Of a stretch of 64,000 bases of DNA, positions 12,457 through 59,968 are shown piece after piece. Each line of letters opens with the position of its first letter. Position 1 is the stretch's first letter. The translations under genes and the position numbers were made by a program. Under the pieces are notes generated by a model that was not told where the DNA came from, searched no databases, and saw nothing but the letters and a program-made list of their open reading frames with translations. The stretch is from the NCBI GenBank assembly GCA_013297885.1, contig JAAFIR010000006.1, positions 1 to 64,000 on the forward strand. Direction: 5' to 3'. The stretch is from Leptospirales bacterium (lineage in GTDB: Bacteria > Spirochaetota > Leptospiria > Leptospirales > Leptospiraceae).

Positions 12457-12599
12457 TTTGGGCGAATTTTTTTGTTCTTCAATTCTTAACAGTCCGGAAG
12501 ATTACTTGTTAAAAAGAACAAAAAAACCGAGCTTTCCGCTACTTCTGAATCCTCTGACTAAAGTCAGAGGCTATTCAGAAACGCTTCAATCTCTTTCGC
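12457..12599 (-). repeat. Structured repeat element E2
   Basis: Read on the minus strand, the outer helix is GCGAA with TTCGC and the inner helix is GAG with CTC. The conserved GATTGAAGCG and GTAGCGGAAAGCTCGG blocks enclose a hairpin with arms CAGAGG and CCTCTG class sequences inside TTCTGAAT/ATTCAGAA. The second hairpin is long and begins with a run of T. It fills the gap between pyk and the acyltransferase gene and could act as a terminator for pyk. Short frames across it are not genes. Confidence 0.85.
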
Positions 12600-12648
12600 A
12601 TAGTATTATAAAACTTATTTTATCAGAAAAAAAATCAGTGAATATTAA

Positions 12649-22940: not shown

Positions 22941-23028
22941 TTGGGCGATTCATCGCTTCGCGATGACCGAGCTACAAAAAGCTTGGTCGCTTTCGCGACT
23001 CTTTTCAGACTTTTTGTATCTCTATCGC
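22941..23028 (-). repeat. Structured repeat element E3 (short-loop subclass)
   Basis: On the minus strand the outer helix is GCGAT with ATCGC and the inner helix is GAG with CTC. This subclass replaces the GATTGAAGCG / GTAGCGAAAAG loop by a directly paired ATACAAAAAG / CTTTTTGTAG stem with a single A-G mismatch. The second hairpin is TCATCGC-GAA-GCGATGA, which differs from E7 and E8 by a compensating base pair. It sits 65 bp from E4 in the opposite orientation. Confidence 0.85.
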
Positions 23029-23093
23029 TTTTAAAACCGACTTAAAATGAAATAGAATAGAACCTTTATTTTGGAAATTTTTTTTCATTACAA

Positions 23094-23233
23094 GCAAAAG
23101 GGATTGTAGCGTTTCTTCATAAAGCAGAGTTGTTTCCCTGCTGGATGAAGAAGTAGCGAAAAGCCCGGTTTTCCATTCGTAAATGGGAATTATGAAACAC
23201 AAACCTAAAAAAAACCGAATGGAAAATTTGCCC
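23094..23233 (+). repeat. Structured repeat element E4
   Basis: The outer helix is GCAAA (23094-23098) with TTTGC (23227-23231) and the inner helix is GGG with CCC. The first hairpin is flanked by GATTGTAGCG and GTAGCGAAAAGCCCGG. The second hairpin closes with TTTTCCATTCG and CGAATGGAAAA. It ends about 55 bp before the amidohydrolase gene. Confidence 0.85.
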
Positions 23234-24617: not shown

Positions 24618-24801
24618 TTCCAAAGTTTAAGTCTTATGTGTTGATAAAATATCACTACTAATTTTATCTATTTTTTTTAGGGCAGTTAATTAAAAATTAT
24701 CAAACTATTATAATAAAAAATATTATTTTTAGTTAGCAATATATTTAGTTTTACTACTGCATAACAATACTATTCCTAATCGATAGTATTTTTAAAACCA
24801 A

Positions 24802-24917
24802 GCAAAAGGGATTGAAACGAAAATCCTTTTGTGAAAATACAACTAAATAATTGGATAAAGAAGTGTTGCAAAAGATTGAAGTGAAAAGCCCGGTTTTTGC
24901 ATCTGCAAAAATTTGCC
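24802..24917 (+). repeat. Structured repeat element E5 (degenerate core)
   Basis: The outer helix is GCAAA (24802-24806) with TTTGC (24912-24916) and the inner helix is GGG with CCC. The loop block GATTGAAACG is changed and a second partial copy of the loop (GATTGAAGTGAAAAGCCCGG) follows. The last hairpin is TTTTTGCA-TC-TGCAAAAA. It looks like a decaying or rearranged copy, 56 bp upstream of the next gene. Confidence 0.7.
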
Positions 24918-39744: not shown

Positions 39745-39763
39745 AAATAATTTCTCAATACTA

Positions 39764-39860
39764 GCGATAGTGATTGAAGCGTTTCTGAATAGCGGTGGAC
39801 TTTAGTCCGCCGATTCAGAAGTAGCGAAAAGCACGGTCATTGCGAAGCAATGAATCGCCC
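39764..39860 (+). repeat. Structured repeat element E7
   Basis: The outer helix is GCGAT (39764-39768) with ATCGC (39854-39858). The inner helix is GTG with CAC, a compensating pair relative to the GGG/CCC copies. The first hairpin combines TTCTGAAT/ATTCAGAA with an inner stem. The second hairpin is TCATTGC-GAA-GCAATGA. Its 3' half is almost identical to that of E8. It lies between convergent genes. Confidence 0.9.
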
Positions 39861-46377: not shown

Positions 46378-46452
46378 TTTTTCTGAAAGAAAAGATGGTT
46401 AAGGAAAATAATTTAGTCTTGTGTTCAAAAAAAGTTTTTTTAATTCAGTAAA

Positions 46453-46543
46453 GCGATAACGATACAAAATGCCGCCTTGCGGGTCTGCCTTTGGCAGACG
46501 GAACCATTTTGTAGCGTGGTCATTGCGAAGCAATGAATCGCCC
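46453..46543 (+). repeat. Structured repeat element E8 (short-loop subclass)
   Basis: The outer helix is GCGAT with ATCGC. The inner helix is ACG with CGT, another compensating pair. The direct stem ATACAAAATG / CATTTTGTAG has a single A-G mismatch and encloses a GC-richer hairpin (GTCTGCC with GGCAGAC). The second hairpin is identical to that of E7. It lies just downstream of the repeat-lipoprotein gene. Confidence 0.9.
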
Positions 46544-51810: not shown

Positions 51811-51843
51811 AAAATAAAATAGGTATGATAAATATTAAAAAAA

Positions 51844-52464
51844 TCACTCTTCATCAGGTAATGTAAAATACAATGGCATGCGATGTGACATTTTTACAGG
51901 TTTCCCTTTAAAAAACCCGGGAGAATAACGAGCCATATTTGTAACTTGAATTGCAGCTTCATCAAAACCATAACCAGCTTTACCTGAAACAATTTTTGCA
52001 GAATTTAATTTTCCAGTTTCATCCACTTGAATTAAAACAATTACTTCTTTTTTTGTGATACCAGCTGCTTTAGCAGCAGATGGAAAAAATTTAGTTAAAT
52101 CAAAATCAATATTGGGAGTTGGGGTTTTGTCACCGTTAAATGAAATCAAATATCCATCTTTATCAATTCCATTTCCAGAAACTGCATTTATATCAATGTC
52201 TTCATTCAAAGGATCGGGCTTTTTTTTATCTCCACCTTCAACCCATTCCTCTTTTGATTTAGGAGTTGGACTTGAGTTTCCACCTATCAATTCAGGTGGG
52301 ATTTCTTCAAAATCAATTTCTGAAATATTTTTTGAATCAACTTGGTTATTTTTTTGTAAAGAATTATAATAAGCAGCAAAAGTAGAAATATGTAAAAAAA
52401 CAGAAATCAAAATTGCTGCTCTAAAAAGATAAACTGTTTTTAGTTTTAAGAAAAAATTTTTCAT
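51844..52464 (-). CDS. tonB: TonB energy transducer, distal copy
   Basis: About 206 aa. One N-terminal membrane helix (TVYLFRAAILISVFLHISTF), an acidic linker and a TonB C-terminal domain (KKEVIVLIQVDETGKLNSAK; ARYSPGFFKGKPVKMSHRMP). The C-terminal 85 residues are nearly identical to the tonB copy at 53178, while the N-terminal half and linker differ. The start at residue 6 of the longer frame is chosen by comparison with that copy. It is the last gene of the ExbB/ExbD operon and follows the Uma2 gene by one base. Confidence 0.85.
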   Translation of the reverse strand: MKNFFLKLKTVYLFRAAILISVFLHISTFAAYYNSLQKNNQVDSKNISEIDFEEIPPELIGGNSSPTPKSKEEWVEGGDKKKPDPLNEDIDINAVSGNGIDKDGYLISFNGDKTPTPNIDFDLTKFFPSAAKAAGITKKEVIVLIQVDETGKLNSAKIVSGKAGYGFDEAAIQVTNMARYSPGFFKGKPVKMSHRMPLYFTLPDEE

Positions 52465-52465
52465 T

Positions 52466-53056
52466 CTATTCATTTTCATTTAACAAGTTCCAATCTATTT
52501 TATCATATAAATCATTTATAGAAATGGAATCTTTTGTGGTTTCGAGAAAAAATTCTTCATTTTCTTTTGATTCTTTAAAAACCCATTCTCCATTTCCAAT
52601 AAATTTAAATTTTTCAACTTTTTTCGTTAAAGAGGAAATTAAAACATATTCTTTTAATTCTGGGATTTCTCTATAAAAAGAAAATTTAGCACCTCTATCA
52701 TATTTTTCTGTGGATTCAGAAAGAATTTCAAAAATGACTGAAGGGTTTGTAACTGTATCTTTTCTATTTTGATAGAATTCTGGCTCACCACAAATGATAA
52801 TTGCATCTGGATAAGTGAATAATTTTGATTTGTCTAAATGTAATCTTAAGTCAGAAGGATATTCAGAACAATTTTTATTTTTTAATAATCTATTCAAAAT
52901 CGAAATCAAATTTGATAAAATTTTATTATGAAAAATGGATGCACCAGCCATTGCATAAATTTCCCCGTTATGGTATTCATTTTTTATTTCAGATTTAGAT
53001 TCTAATTCTAAATAATCTTCAATTGAATAAAAAATTTTTGCTGGTAAACTTGCCAT
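52466..53056 (-). CDS. Uma2-family (DUF820) PD-(D/E)XK endonuclease-like protein
   Basis: 196 aa. Family features in order: YLELESKSEIKNEYHNGEIY, the acidic site YPDAIIICG, and the catalytic block VIFEILSESTEKYDRGAKFS followed by FYREIPELKEYVLI. Uma2 proteins are abundant in cyanobacteria and some spirochaetes, but their biological role is poorly known. It lies between two nearly identical tonB genes and next to the second without a gap, as if inserted during or after the duplication. Confidence 0.88.
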   Translation of the reverse strand: MASLPAKIFYSIEDYLELESKSEIKNEYHNGEIYAMAGASIFHNKILSNLISILNRLLKNKNCSEYPSDLRLHLDKSKLFTYPDAIIICGEPEFYQNRKDTVTNPSVIFEILSESTEKYDRGAKFSFYREIPELKEYVLISSLTKKVEKFKFIGNGEWVFKESKENEEFFLETTKDSISINDLYDKIDWNLLNENE

Positions 53057-53177
53057 TTATAAAATATAATTTTGCTTTTTTTTAAGTCAAGATTTTTTTA
53101 AGCAAAAACAACTCTTTCTTGATTCAAAATAAATTATTCCTCATTTTTAATTTAACATTGATCATTACTAAACCAAA

Positions 53178-53807
53178 TCACTCCTCATCTGGTAATGTAA
53201 AATACAATGGCATGCGATGAGACATTTTTACAGGTTTGCCTTTTACATAACCTGGAGAATAACGAGCCATATTTGTAACTTGCATTGCAGCTTCATCAAA
53301 ACCATAACCAGCTTTACCTGAAACAATTTTTGCAGAATTTAATTTTCCAGTTTCATCCACTTGAATTAAAACAATTACTTCTTTTTTTGTGATACCAGCT
53401 GCTTTAGCGGCAGGTGGGAAAAACTTTGTTAAGTCAGTATCTAATATTGGAGTTGGGGTTTTGTCACCATTAAACGAAAATAAATACCCATCTTTATCTG
53501 TTCCATTACCTGAAACTGCATTTACATTGATGTCTTCATTACTTGGATCATCAGCATTTTTATTTGAACCCTCTACCCAATCATTTTTTTCAACTGGTGC
53601 TGGACTTGAAGTTCCTCCAATTAATTCAGGTGGAATTTCTTGCAAGTCAATCTCAGACTCATTGATAGTAGAAGAATCAACTTCACCAATTGAAACCATT
53701 TGAGAAATATAATATGCAGCATAAACAGAACAATGTAAAAACAAAGAAAGTATAACTGTTGTTCTGAATAAATAAATTGTTCTTGCTTTTTTTAAAAATT
53801 CTTTCAT
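53178..53807 (-). CDS. tonB: TonB energy transducer, proximal copy
   Basis: 209 aa. N-terminal membrane helix (TIYLFRTTVILSLFLHCSVY), acidic linker with NADDPSNEDINVNAVSGNGT, and a TonB C-terminal domain. It follows exbD by ten bases with a strong ribosome site (gagg), so it is the regular tonB of this system. It would energise one or both TonB-dependent receptors in the window. Confidence 0.88.
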   Translation of the reverse strand: MKEFLKKARTIYLFRTTVILSLFLHCSVYAAYYISQMVSIGEVDSSTINESEIDLQEIPPELIGGTSSPAPVEKNDWVEGSNKNADDPSNEDINVNAVSGNGTDKDGYLFSFNGDKTPTPILDTDLTKFFPPAAKAAGITKKEVIVLIQVDETGKLNSAKIVSGKAGYGFDEAAMQVTNMARYSPGYVKGKPVKMSHRMPLYFTLPDEE

Positions 53808-53817
53808 TTTACTTTCC

Positions 53818-54222
53818 TCATTTTTTTACTGATAAAGCAATCCTAGTGATTCCTGCTTTTCTAATAATTCCCATCATCTGAGTTATTGTTTTATAGGGAA
53901 GTGTTTCATCTGCTGATAAAGTAACTCTCATGTTTGGTCTGAGCTTTGAATCTCTTTCTAAAGTTTTAAAAAGTTTTTGTTCATCAGTTGCTTGACCTTC
54001 CAAAAGAAGTTTCCCATCTCTAGTGATTGCAACTTGAGTGGATTGAGCCACATTTGGATCTGCTGCTTGCACTTTCGGCAAATTGATGTTAATAGATTCT
54101 TTTTTTAAAAAATTTGCAGTCACCATAAAAATTACTAGAAGCACCAAGATCACATCCACCATTGGAGTGATATTGATTCCGTCTATTTCATCATTTTCGC
54201 CGGAGCCTTGAGACATTGCCAT
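53818..54222 (-). CDS. exbD: ExbD/TolR-family proton-channel subunit
   Basis: 134 aa with one membrane helix (INITPMVDVILVLLVIFMVT) carrying the conserved proton-path Asp, and a periplasmic domain ending in MMGIIRKAGITRIALSVKK. A strong ribosome site (aagga) precedes the ATG. It works with ExbB to drive TonB. Confidence 0.93.
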   Translation of the reverse strand: MAMSQGSGENDEIDGINITPMVDVILVLLVIFMVTANFLKKESININLPKVQAADPNVAQSTQVAITRDGKLLLEGQATDEQKLFKTLERDSKLRPNMRVTLSADETLPYKTITQMMGIIRKAGITRIALSVKK

Positions 54223-54233
54223 AAAATATTTCC

Positions 54234-54839
54234 TTATTTTTTGAGAGAGCTAGCTAAAAATTCTCTAGAGAGAATTTCTAAATTTTGAATTACCACTTTT
54301 AATTTTTTTGCAAAAAAATTATTTGTCATTACAACTGGAATTGCCACAAACAAACCAGCAGCAGTTGCAAGAAGTGCAACAGAAATACTTTTCATCACCA
54401 CTTCAGCTCCACTGTTTCCAAGTGTTCCAAGACCATTAAATGCTTTGATCACACCAAGAACTGTTCCGAGAAGTCCAAGAAACGGGGCGTTGTTTCCAAG
54501 TGTGGAAAGAATTGGTAATCTTTTTTCAAGCTCAATTCTAGTTTCAATCACTCGACCTTGCATCAATTCAGATAAAGAATCATGACCACCTGAATATTCA
54601 GAGGACGCAAAAGAAGTAAAATTTTTATAAACTGATTTTCCATCTGTTTCTTTTAAAGAAGCAAAATCTTTTCCTCTAATTTTTGAAATTAAATCTTTCA
54701 TTAAAGAATCAGGAGCTTTTCCTAAACGATTAAAAACGATTACTCTTTCCACTGTCACTGCAACAGCTAAAATACTAGCAACTAACATTAAAAGAAAAAT
54801 TGCATTTTCACCGAACTCAACTAAAAACATTGTATCCAT
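54234..54839 (-). CDS. exbB: ExbB/MotA/TolQ-family proton-channel protein
   Basis: About 201 aa with three membrane helices. The conserved central region reads LSTLGNNAPFLGLLGTVLGV and the last helix MKSISVALLATAAGLFVAIP. The ATG at 54839 has an aaagga ribosome site at good spacing; the longer frame starts at a TTG six codons earlier. It opens the exbB-exbD-tonB-uma2-tonB stretch. Confidence 0.93.
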   Translation of the reverse strand: MDTMFLVEFGENAIFLLMLVASILAVAVTVERVIVFNRLGKAPDSLMKDLISKIRGKDFASLKETDGKSVYKNFTSFASSEYSGGHDSLSELMQGRVIETRIELEKRLPILSTLGNNAPFLGLLGTVLGVIKAFNGLGTLGNSGAEVVMKSISVALLATAAGLFVAIPVVMTNNFFAKKLKVVIQNLEILSREFLASSLKK

Positions 54840-54858
54840 ATATATTCCTTTTTTCAAA

Positions 54859-54878
54859 CAGTGGGTTTTAACCCACTG
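54859..54878. repeat. CAGTGGGTT-type palindrome, copy 2
   Basis: CAGTGGGTTTTAACCCACTG, perfect 9-bp arms, in the 144-bp gap between exbB and the cysteine-rich lipoprotein gene. It may form a stem in the mRNA upstream of exbB. It is identical to the copy at 63740. Confidence 0.7.
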
Positions 54879-54983: not shown

Positions 54984-55586
54984 CTAAGGATTGTTCCCTG
55001 AAACTCTAAAACAATCTGCCCTACAATTACTAGAACCAACATCTTTTATTTGTCCTTCTAAAATTTCTTGACTAGATACTGAGCAAATATTTAAATTTCT
55101 TCTAGTTAAAAAATAACTCCTACCACAATTCATAATACATACTTTAATTGTTTCAGAAAGTCTTTGTCCCAAATCTGTAACTTCATTATTACATAAATCA
55201 TTATAATTAGAAAAACGATTTTGAGGTAATGTAGAAATTCTTGAAACATTAGCTTCAGTTAACTGAATGCTACTGAACTCAGTTGAACTTTGTAAACAAT
55301 CTCTTGCAACTTGGTATTTTGAAATACAAGCATTAACAGGAGTGATTCTATTTTTATTTGCCTGATCTATAATCACTTTAAACAAAAAAAGTTTTTCATA
55401 ATCGTTTACTATTTTTTTTTCTGCACAAGAAATATTTAAGAAGAGCAAAAAAATGAAAAGGGTTAGGGATACAAAATACTGCGAAGCAGCTTTCACCGAA
55501 GGTGAAAGGAAACTATTTTGTAGCCCGACTTTTTTTTGCGAAGCCAAAAAAAGAACCCCCGAAATTTTAAATAAAAAAGTTCTCAT
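54984..55586 (-). CDS. Cysteine-rich lipoprotein with a structured element inside its signal-peptide region
   Basis: 200 aa reading from an ATG that overlaps the receptor stop (TAATG). The frame passes straight through repeat element E9 (codons about 9-42) before reaching the real lipoprotein signal LTLFIFLLFLNISC. The original signal peptide was probably MRTFLFKI joined to this hydrophobic stretch. A GTG at 55496 inside the element could give an alternative shorter signal peptide. The mature part has about eight cysteines, including CIMNCG, RRNLNICSV and NCRADCF. The RNLNICS motif is shared with the lipoprotein at 58101. Probably a partner of the TonB receptor. Confidence 0.65.
   Translation of the reverse strand: MRTFLFKISGVLFLASQKKVGLQNSFLSPSVKAASQYFVSLTLFIFLLFLNISCAEKKIVNDYEKLFLFKVIIDQANKNRITPVNACISKYQVARDCLQSSTEFSSIQLTEANVSRISTLPQNRFSNYNDLCNNEVTDLGQRLSETIKVCIMNCGRSYFLTRRNLNICSVSSQEILEGQIKDVGSSNCRADCFRVSGNNP
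55460..55560 (+). repeat. Structured repeat element E9 (short-loop subclass) inside a coding region
   Basis: The outer helix is GGGTT (55460-55464) with AACCC (55554-55558) and the inner helix is GGG with CCC. The direct stem is ATACAAAAT / ATTTTGTAG with the usual A-G mismatch. The second hairpin is TTTTTTT paired with AAAAAAA around GCGAAGC. It lies antisense within the 5' part of the cysteine-rich lipoprotein gene and keeps its frame open. Confidence 0.9.
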
Positions 55587-58099
55587 TAAAATCTTACCTC
55601 CATTCCTAAATTGAAAAACGGGATGATTTGTCCAGAAGGTAGTCTCAGTGAATATGGATCTAATTGTGGTTGAGGATTTCTAAGTGAAAAAGGAGCTGTT
55701 GAAGAAAAATCTTCTTGAAGCACATTCTTGCGAATATATGTGTTTATAATTTCAAAATAAAGATTCATATATCCCCATTCATAATTTAAAAATTTATCAA
55801 AACGTAAATCTAATCGATGGTAAGCTTGTAATCTTCTTGAGTTTGTGTAATCGTTTGTGTAAGGATTGTCTGAATATTTTGGAGACCAAAAAGTTTGTCC
55901 ATTTGCAGGATTGCTAAATCTTCCTCCGTCATCTCCAACAACAGGGGTAAATGGATAAGCAGTTCTATAAAACCATCTTCCACCTATTTGGTATTCTTGA
56001 GTGATTCTCCAGCCATAAACAATATTTATTAAATGAGTTACATCAAAACCAGAAATGAGTTCTCTTGAATTTGGAAAAAGTGATCGAAGCCTTTGCTCAT
56101 CACCAGATAAAACAACAGATTTATTCGGGTCATAATCTCTGTTGTATAAATTATCATTTCTAAATGATTGAGACCATGTATAAGCAATCCAACCAAACCA
56201 ATCTTTTGTTCCGGGACGATTTGATTTTTTGATAAAAATTTCATAACCATGTGCCCAACCAGTTCCATTATTTGAATAATTCAATGGACGGTTTTGAACA
56301 AAGGGTCTTTGAATTCTTTGGAATCTATCTGGATTTAAACCAACTGGTTCAGAAATGAATGGATCTTGAACTATGATATCTTTAAATTCTTGTTTAAATA
56401 ATTCTGTTTTAAAAGTCCATTCTTCAGTGATTTGTTGTTCAACCCCACCACCATATTTAGTTGCTTTTTCAAAACGTATATTTGGGTTTCCAGATTCTTT
56501 AGAAATTGCACCATCAAAAAAAGGATAACGATAATAATCTCCAGCACCACCAAACACAGTTGTGCCTTTTAAAAAACCTTCAAATTTATAAGATACAACT
56601 GCTCTTGGCCCTAGCACACCTTGTCTAGAAATAGAAATATAATCATATCTTGCACCAGGATTAAATGAAAAATTTCCAAATTTAAAATTAAGTGTGCTGT
56701 AAGCGTTGTAATAACTTGCTGGAGATTTTTGAGAAATTTCTGCTCTTTCAAAGTCAGGATTTTGTGTATTGTAAATATTTGGACTTGGATTATTTGGATC
56801 TTTAACTCTTCCTGTAAAACCTGTTACATTATAACTGATTGCTCTAGCTTCTGTTCCAAATTCTACTTTTAAAAAATCTGCTGCATTCCAAGTTGCATCT
56901 TGCCTTATACCAGTGTAAGGAGCTTTTGCAGAAAAGTTTGCATCAAATGTTCCAAATCTTGCAGAAGTATTTATATAAGGTTCGTAGTTAATCAATGTTA
57001 AACGATTAGTAAATTTTGAACCCGGTGTCCATACATATCTCAGACCCATTGTTCTAAAACCTTGACCTGCATTTAGAGAAGAACCAGCAATTGAAGATAA
57101 TGCTTCTCTGGTTGGGTCATTCACTGGTCTAGTTGGGGCATTTAAAGAAAAAGAATCTTGTGCAGTTAAAGAAGTAAATGAGATTTGGTGTTGTGAATTA
57201 AAATTGTACACAATTTTGACATTCGAACTATTATAACGAGGAAGTCTAATTCCGTCTGGAACAAGTCCTGATTGCCCAAAAGTTCTATCTAGATAACCCA
57301 CTTTTCCACCAGCTGCAATAAAACCTTTTCCACCAAGTATTGGAGTTTGGTACATAGCTTGTCCAAGAAACAAAGACATATTAAAAGTACCTTGTGATTT
57401 TTTTACAGCATCTGTTGCTTCAATTTCAATAACACCACCTGTAGCATTTGCAAAATTTGCAGGATATGCTCCAGTGTAAATATCAATTGTTTTGATTAAA
57501 TCATTATGAATCACTGAGTTAAGAGAATCAAAATGATATGCATAAAAAATAGGTAAATCATCATAAAGATATGTGTTCGCATTACAAGGTGCACCCCTAA
57601 TAATAATTCCTCCAAAACAATTATTTGGTCCACCACCACCTGCAAATGGTGGAGGAGCAAAAACACCTGGTAAAGTAGCAAGTGCATTTAGTGCTTCACC
57701 AAAAGTTCCGGGCATTCTTTTGATTTCGTCATATCGGACTTTGTAACGAGAAAGAATCGTTTTGTCTTTTTGTCCTTCAACTAAAATTCCACCTTTTGGT
57801 TTATCAACTTTATCAGTATATAAAGTAATTTCTTCATTGTCCTGTGAAACCGATTTTTTGATTTCTTGAAATCCATTTGATCTTATAATTCTAAAAGTAT
57901 AATCTCCAGGTGCTGGAAGTTTTCCCTCAAAATAACCATTTTCATCTGTCTGAAATGCTTGTCCTGTTTCAAATACTTTTACAGGGAGATTTGCTTCTCC
58001 TTTATTTTGTTGCCTGCTAAACAATCTTCCTCTGAAACTCACTTCAGCAAAAAGACTAGTGCTAATTAATAATAAAATTGTATAAGTTAATTTTTTCAT
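55586..58099 (-). CDS. TonB-dependent receptor with CarboxypepD-like N-terminal domain
   Basis: 837-aa outer-membrane receptor. Signal peptide, then a carboxypeptidase-regulatory-like beta-sandwich (about 20-95; DENGYFEGKLPAPGDYTFRI), a short linker with GILVEGQ that may serve as TonB box, a plug domain (RMPGTFGEALNALATLPGVF, FGGIIIRGAPCNANTYLYDD) and a barrel ending in Phe (NLGMEVRF). Two cysteines flank the plug motif. It is sandwiched between two cysteine-rich lipoproteins and upstream of exbB/exbD/tonB, suggesting a dedicated uptake system. Substrate unknown. Confidence 0.92.
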   Translation of the reverse strand: MKKLTYTILLLISTSLFAEVSFRGRLFSRQQNKGEANLPVKVFETGQAFQTDENGYFEGKLPAPGDYTFRIIRSNGFQEIKKSVSQDNEEITLYTDKVDKPKGGILVEGQKDKTILSRYKVRYDEIKRMPGTFGEALNALATLPGVFAPPPFAGGGGPNNCFGGIIIRGAPCNANTYLYDDLPIFYAYHFDSLNSVIHNDLIKTIDIYTGAYPANFANATGGVIEIEATDAVKKSQGTFNMSLFLGQAMYQTPILGGKGFIAAGGKVGYLDRTFGQSGLVPDGIRLPRYNSSNVKIVYNFNSQHQISFTSLTAQDSFSLNAPTRPVNDPTREALSSIAGSSLNAGQGFRTMGLRYVWTPGSKFTNRLTLINYEPYINTSARFGTFDANFSAKAPYTGIRQDATWNAADFLKVEFGTEARAISYNVTGFTGRVKDPNNPSPNIYNTQNPDFERAEISQKSPASYYNAYSTLNFKFGNFSFNPGARYDYISISRQGVLGPRAVVSYKFEGFLKGTTVFGGAGDYYRYPFFDGAISKESGNPNIRFEKATKYGGGVEQQITEEWTFKTELFKQEFKDIIVQDPFISEPVGLNPDRFQRIQRPFVQNRPLNYSNNGTGWAHGYEIFIKKSNRPGTKDWFGWIAYTWSQSFRNDNLYNRDYDPNKSVVLSGDEQRLRSLFPNSRELISGFDVTHLINIVYGWRITQEYQIGGRWFYRTAYPFTPVVGDDGGRFSNPANGQTFWSPKYSDNPYTNDYTNSRRLQAYHRLDLRFDKFLNYEWGYMNLYFEIINTYIRKNVLQEDFSSTAPFSLRNPQPQLDPYSLRLPSGQIIPFFNLGMEVRF

Positions 58100-59728: not shown

Positions 59729-59841
59729 AAATTTTGTAATTTCAGTAAATACTAAAAATTCAGAATATTTAGTCAATTAAAAAATTATATTTATTTAGTA
59801 ATTTTATAATCAATATTTAACTCCCAAATTACTCAATACAA

Positions 59842-59968
59842 GGGTTAGGGATTGAAGCGTTTCTGAATAGCCTCGGACTTTAGGGAGAGGTTATTCAGAA
59901 GTAGCGTAAAGCCCGACCGTTTTGTTAATGAAAATTTTTAATTTTAAATTAACAAAACGGGAACTCCC
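59842..59968 (+). repeat. Structured repeat element E10
   Basis: The outer helix is GGGTT with AACTC (one wobble pair) and the inner helix is GGG with CCC. The first hairpin has TTCTGAATA/TATTCAGAA arms like E2 and E7. The second hairpin is CCGTTTTGTTAAT paired with ATTAACAAAACGG. It lies between the Bat operon end and the regulator gene. Confidence 0.85.

Follow-up and report, generated by a model that had tools for sequence, protein, structure and literature searches.

The window, that is the whole stretch of 64,000 nucleotides analysed here, carries on its reverse strand the gene of a TonB-dependent receptor, followed by a lipoprotein gene and by exbB, exbD and tonB, and the lipoprotein gene holds within its signal-peptide region a structured repeat element, which we call E9. 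The features of this locus are the following:

55586 to 58099, reverse strand: TonB-dependent receptor with Plug domain (Pfam PF07715)
55596 to 55601, reverse strand: Shine-Dalgarno sequence GGAGGT within the last codons of the receptor, with GGAGG in place in five of five orthologues
55584 to 55586, reverse strand: ATG start of the lipoprotein gene, overlapping the receptor TAA (55588-55586), at a position common to the five orthologues
54984 to 55586, reverse strand: lipoprotein open reading frame with the element in frame, 200 amino acids (from the list of open reading frames)
55458 to 55560, reverse strand: structured repeat element E9, which folds and matches covariance model R1 (59.6 bits, E = 6.7e-15)
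55559-55554 with 55464-55459, reverse strand: outer stem of E9, followed by hairpin 1 at 55553-55529
55526 to 55466, reverse strand: inner stem of E9 with two terminal hairpins
55494 to 55496, reverse strand: GTG (V31), candidate internal start within hairpin 2 (55508-55490), from the sequence and the fold
55425 to 55439, reverse strand: lipobox region LNISC, with residue 54 as the predicted lipidated cysteine (sequence and an invariant C54 alignment column)
54234-54857, 53818-54222 and 53178-53807, reverse strand: exbB, exbD and tonB, downstream of the lipoprotein gene (Pfam PF01618, PF02472 and PF03544)

The A of the lipoprotein ATG is the last base of the receptor's TAA. From this start the frame gives eight codons (MRTFLFKI), runs through E9, resumes as LTLFIFLLFLNISC and continues into a cysteine-rich lipoprotein; this arrangement, reported in a preliminary description made from the sequence, was borne out. 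The lipoprotein, to which no family was assigned, has no match in Pfam or NCBIfam, and exbB and exbD lie 3' of the lipoprotein gene also at the orthologous loci L036-L039. Two tonB-like genes are present in the window, at 51841-52479 and 53175-53807, with 3' ends that are 92% identical over 300 nt, and a Uma2-family gene sits between them.

The covariance model R1 was built from eight other copies of the repeat and finds E9, with the score listed above, although E9 was left out of its building. The match spans 103 nt (55458-55560), which is no multiple of three, and the outer stem is of the GGGTT/AACCC variant. Compared with dinucleotide shuffles, the E9 fold has z = -4.5 as RNA and z = -6.6 as DNA, and none of 200 shuffles folds as well.

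Empty sites, reading frame and start codon

A protein search over 60 relatives gave five orthologues of the lipoprotein gene, of which three belong to the genus of the window and two to other genera of its family (three genera in all), and the E9 stretch is absent from all five. In each of them the coding frame starts at this same place, preceded by the GGAGG that is common to the ends of the receptor genes, with ATG in four cases and TTG in one, and the signal peptide is continuous, its lipobox cysteine standing at residue 17 in three cases, at 18 in one and at 24 in one. The earlier proposal that the element landed in an existing signal peptide and kept the frame is therefore supported by five empty sites sharing start and Shine-Dalgarno sequence. 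The same proposal had expected that empty sites would also give the exact ends of the insertion, and in this it did not hold, since the orthologues, only 28-38% identical, do not reveal the precise target site.

Two further ways of fixing the ends were rejected. No clear or consistent target duplication was found in the flanks of 92 copies of the family, whose complementary ends measure only 5-7 bp, and taking out precisely the 103 nt that the model matches disrupts the frame. The true ends of E9 may lie one or two bases away from those of the match; alternatively, slippage in the T runs after the insertion may have put the gene back in frame. With a net insert of 102 or 105 nt the frame stays continuous, so that the figure of 33 inserted residues, given previously, is right to within about two residues, the exact ends not being fixed.

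As a translation start, the conserved ATG is likelier than the internal GTG, which had been named as a possibility beforehand. Initiation at this GTG would yield MKAASQYFVSLTLFIFLLFLNISC, a textbook lipoprotein signal of 24 residues with lysine at position 2, as judged from sequence and hydropathy, and it could be envisaged that the insertion is real, but that translation now begins at V31 and E9 has mostly become a new untranslated leader. However, the GTG has no Shine-Dalgarno sequence and is buried in the 3' arm of a stable hairpin, whereas the ancestral ATG keeps a strong and conserved GGAGG and the frame is open from it; this makes a switch to the GTG unlikely. It has been warned that repeats of the REP type placed in N-terminal coding regions are possibly extragenic, owing to misannotated starts (PMC3733652); for E9 this caveat is disfavoured, because both the upstream ATG and its Shine-Dalgarno sequence are conserved.

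An open frame through a copy of this repeat is not a rare event: on this strand, 35% of the combinations of copy and frame are free of stop codons, compared with 18% for shuffles, and an open in-frame insertion is thus not improbable. By the same token, the lipoprotein gene might be a decaying pseudogene in which the frame has stayed open by chance. Against this, the protein aligns over its full length with no stop or frameshift, its start and Shine-Dalgarno sequence are unchanged, and the eight cysteines beyond the lipobox that are invariant in the orthologue alignment (A1) are all kept in the E9-bearing protein, which argues for a living gene and renders decay quite improbable.

The E9 family and its relation to Flavo-1

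In this genome R1 gives 114 matches at E up to 0.01, about 90 of which were read at sequence level. The family forms a three-way junction of about 70-150 nt, with a common plan in which GGGCGAT forms the outer arm, a hairpin free in sequence comes next, a GRG / CTACAAAA stem bears further hairpins and ATCGC closes the outer stem, and the variants of this outer stem covary (GCGAT/ATCGC, GCGTT/AACGC, GAGTT/AACTC and GGGTT/AACCC). Most copies (e.g. L070, L071, L087) have a weakly conserved right tail, TAGTATTGAAAAATTTT, after the outer stem; it is missing from E9 and from L074. Over 92 distinct rows, 96.2% of the cells are paired, compared with 44-47% in slid-partner controls, and two-sided changes number 484 against 49-64, in an alignment that was fitted to the model, so that the comparison leans towards it. 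The structure of the family is under strong constraint. Other copies of the family, and matches to Flavo-1 (Rfam RF01705), lie elsewhere in the window:

46451 to 46543, reverse strand: full E9-family copy (R1, 94 bits)
22943 to 23030, forward strand: full E9-family copy (R1, 87.3 bits)
39762 to 39860, reverse strand: composite copy, with outer stem and hairpin 1 of E9 type and inner arm of Flavo-1 type (R1, 45.9 bits; sequence)
85-172 and 24797-24899, forward strand: Flavo-1 matches (RF01705)
23089-23174 and 59827-59922, forward strand, and 12521-12605, reverse strand: weaker Flavo-1 matches (RF01705)

E9 itself (55458-55560) stays below the gathering threshold of RF01705 and has no match to it even at E up to 5, and its assignment to Rfam was accordingly rejected. 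Flavo-1 is nevertheless, like the E9 family, multi-copy here, with 86 matches in the genome at E up to 0.001, and its local copies have the outer stem and side hairpin of E9, differing from it in the inner arm. In fact, in 18 of 25 local Flavo-1 copies the exact complement of the five outer-arm bases that precede the core, plus C, lies downstream on the far side of the side hairpin; such a matching 3' outer arm is seen in only 1.2% of shuffles. Furthermore, some copies join an outer part of E9 type to an inner arm resembling that of Flavo-1. The E9 family is modular, its outer stem and side hairpin being common to the Flavo-1 copies of this genome, and the Rfam model of Flavo-1 seems to describe the inner arm only, with the outer stem and the side hairpin lying outside it.

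If selection acted on the helix as RNA, G.U would be expected to be tolerated more readily than A.C. Among the 1,992 helix cells of the family, terminal pair excluded, 1,916 are Watson-Crick, 19 are G.U and 20 are A.C; the near equality of the last two counts suggests that pairing matters on both strands, as in DNA, and hence that folded DNA rather than RNA is the form that matters. This bears on a further explanation, in which E9 would be a regulatory RNA domesticated at the receptor/lipoprotein junction, for the control of translation or of the transcript, rather than a neutral insertion. E9 does have a stable fold in the mRNA, and Flavo-1, with which it shares its frame, is catalogued as an RNA. 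Yet G.U is no commoner than A.C, unlike in a selected RNA helix, about 114 copies are dispersed in the genome and the site is empty in all of the relatives found. Moreover, the Flavo-1 matches in Flavobacterium psychrophilum are sense and antisense alike (PMC9723704). Domestication as a regulator is, on these grounds, very improbable.

Origin, mobilisation and known counterparts

A search with R1 over the 60 relatives, with strict filters and E 1e-4, gave no copy. A laxer pass over six relatives gave one weak match in a congener (E 1.9e-5), at a place also scoring as Flavo-1, none in two other congeners and a match at chance level in another genus. The family, nearly absent from the relatives, is expanded in this genome and, given also the five empty sites, E9 most probably entered in the lineage of the window. 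That E9 stood at this site in the common ancestor and disappeared elsewhere is barely credible: losses would have had to be repeated across three genera, three of the relatives concerned belonging to the genus of the window itself, and hardly any copy of the family occurs in those relatives.

In GTDB r220 the core pattern of the family occurs in three contigs, one of them in a Bacteroidia metagenome-assembled genome (G063, L160) that has 31 E9-family copies with the same outer-stem variants as the genome of the window; the distribution is therefore patchy across phyla. A Niallia contig and a further metagenome-assembled genome have matches to the core pattern only, with no genome-wide family, and were set aside, and no exact match to the pattern was found in viral contigs.

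The sole Y1 transposase (Y1_Tnp) found in the genome, at C42:66004, was rejected as mobiliser of the family because no copies flank it: none lies within 1.5 kb and the nearest R1 match is about 4.5 kb off. The palindromes beside its gene (CAGTGGGT...ACCCACTG) differ from E9, and no transposase was linked to the family. A palindrome, CAGTGGGTTTTAACCCACTG, is present upstream of exbB at 54859-54878 of the window, with similar ones in the flanks of L041; palindromes of this kind may be REPs of the Y1 enzyme, since similar ones adjoin its gene.

Taken together, these sequence comparisons make it quite probable that E9 is a copy of a mobile element, inserted in frame in a signal peptide and read through from the ancestral ATG. 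E9 would be a mobile DNA element of small size (about 70-150 bp), non-autonomous and expanded in this lineage, that folds into a three-way junction and is mobilised in trans, most likely in the form of a folded DNA strand. At the TonB receptor/ExbB/ExbD/TonB locus it would have entered a conserved lipoprotein gene, in the part of the signal-peptide sequence that lies after codon 8 and before the hydrophobic core. Because the net insertion preserved the frame, ribosomes that initiate at the ancestral ATG, with its conserved Shine-Dalgarno sequence and its coupling to the receptor stop, would read through E9, and the product would carry about 34 extra residues in the n-region; the h-region and the lipobox are left intact, so that export and lipidation plausibly continue. 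This is strong comparative evidence for the mobility of a structured-repeat family whose architecture is related to that of an orphan Rfam RNA, and it suggests that a bacterial signal-peptide n-region can absorb about 34 foreign residues; the preliminary description had spoken of direct evidence, a slightly strong term, since the orthologues are divergent and no mobilising enzyme was found.

A wider hypothesis is possible, if somewhat doubtful: E9 and Flavo-1 could be versions, distinguished by their inner arms, of a single modular superfamily of mobile DNA elements with a three-way junction, spread between the lineage of the window and Bacteroidota. Their folded DNA would be recognised by an enzyme, their inner arms would be exchanged by recombination, and they would occasionally insert into genes in frame, at the n-region of signal peptides; the "Flavo-1 RNA" of Rfam would then be a fragment of such an element. 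It becomes possible to test if Flavo-1 is truly an RNA or part of a mobile DNA; the question dates from the listing of Flavo-1 in 2010 (PMC2864571), and a later transcriptome study brought no hint of what Flavo-1 does (PMC9723704).

Palindromic inserts in frame are already known from Rickettsia, in which short palindromic elements lie within coding genes and the host protein is apparently preserved (Ogata et al., reviewed in PMC10969869), and E9, with an open frame and empty orthologues, can be regarded as a variant of that kind. However, nearly half of the Rickettsia elements lie in open reading frames, compared with two of 89 copies here; their fold differs from that of E9, which has no established conserved peptide and sits in the n-region of a signal peptide. 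REPs are likewise multi-copy, palindromic and sometimes intragenic (PMC3733652), but they are hairpins of 20-40 bp tagged GTAG or CGTC and not three-way junctions, and the GTAG-tagged ones are mobilised by RAYT, the gene of which is flanked by the repeat; no such arrangement was found for the E9 family. With bacterial MITEs the family shares small size, non-autonomy, dispersal and complementary ends; it differs in that these ends are only 5-7 bp, no consistent target duplication was seen and structure is conserved more than sequence. In a non-exhaustive search of the literature, no paper was found that describes the E9 family or a signal peptide carrying an insert of this type.

Besides E9, the only one of the 89 loci convincingly inside a long open reading frame is G000:C50:32979-33108, in a gene (L107:1482-3130) where it forms part of a long N-terminal extension of a PLD-domain lipoprotein; no Flavo-1 copy lies in an open reading frame among the loci tested. 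The gene begins with AGGAGG-AATT-ATG and six codons, followed by the element, about 70 further residues, a lipobox (LLFTIITSFLINC) and the PLD-domain protein. A true empty site was not found among its homologues, which are only 25-29% identical. Most of them start close to the lipobox, and two from the same genus also have a long upstream open frame, so that this second case is suggestive only. The gene directly follows the end of an open reading frame resembling an outer-membrane protein.
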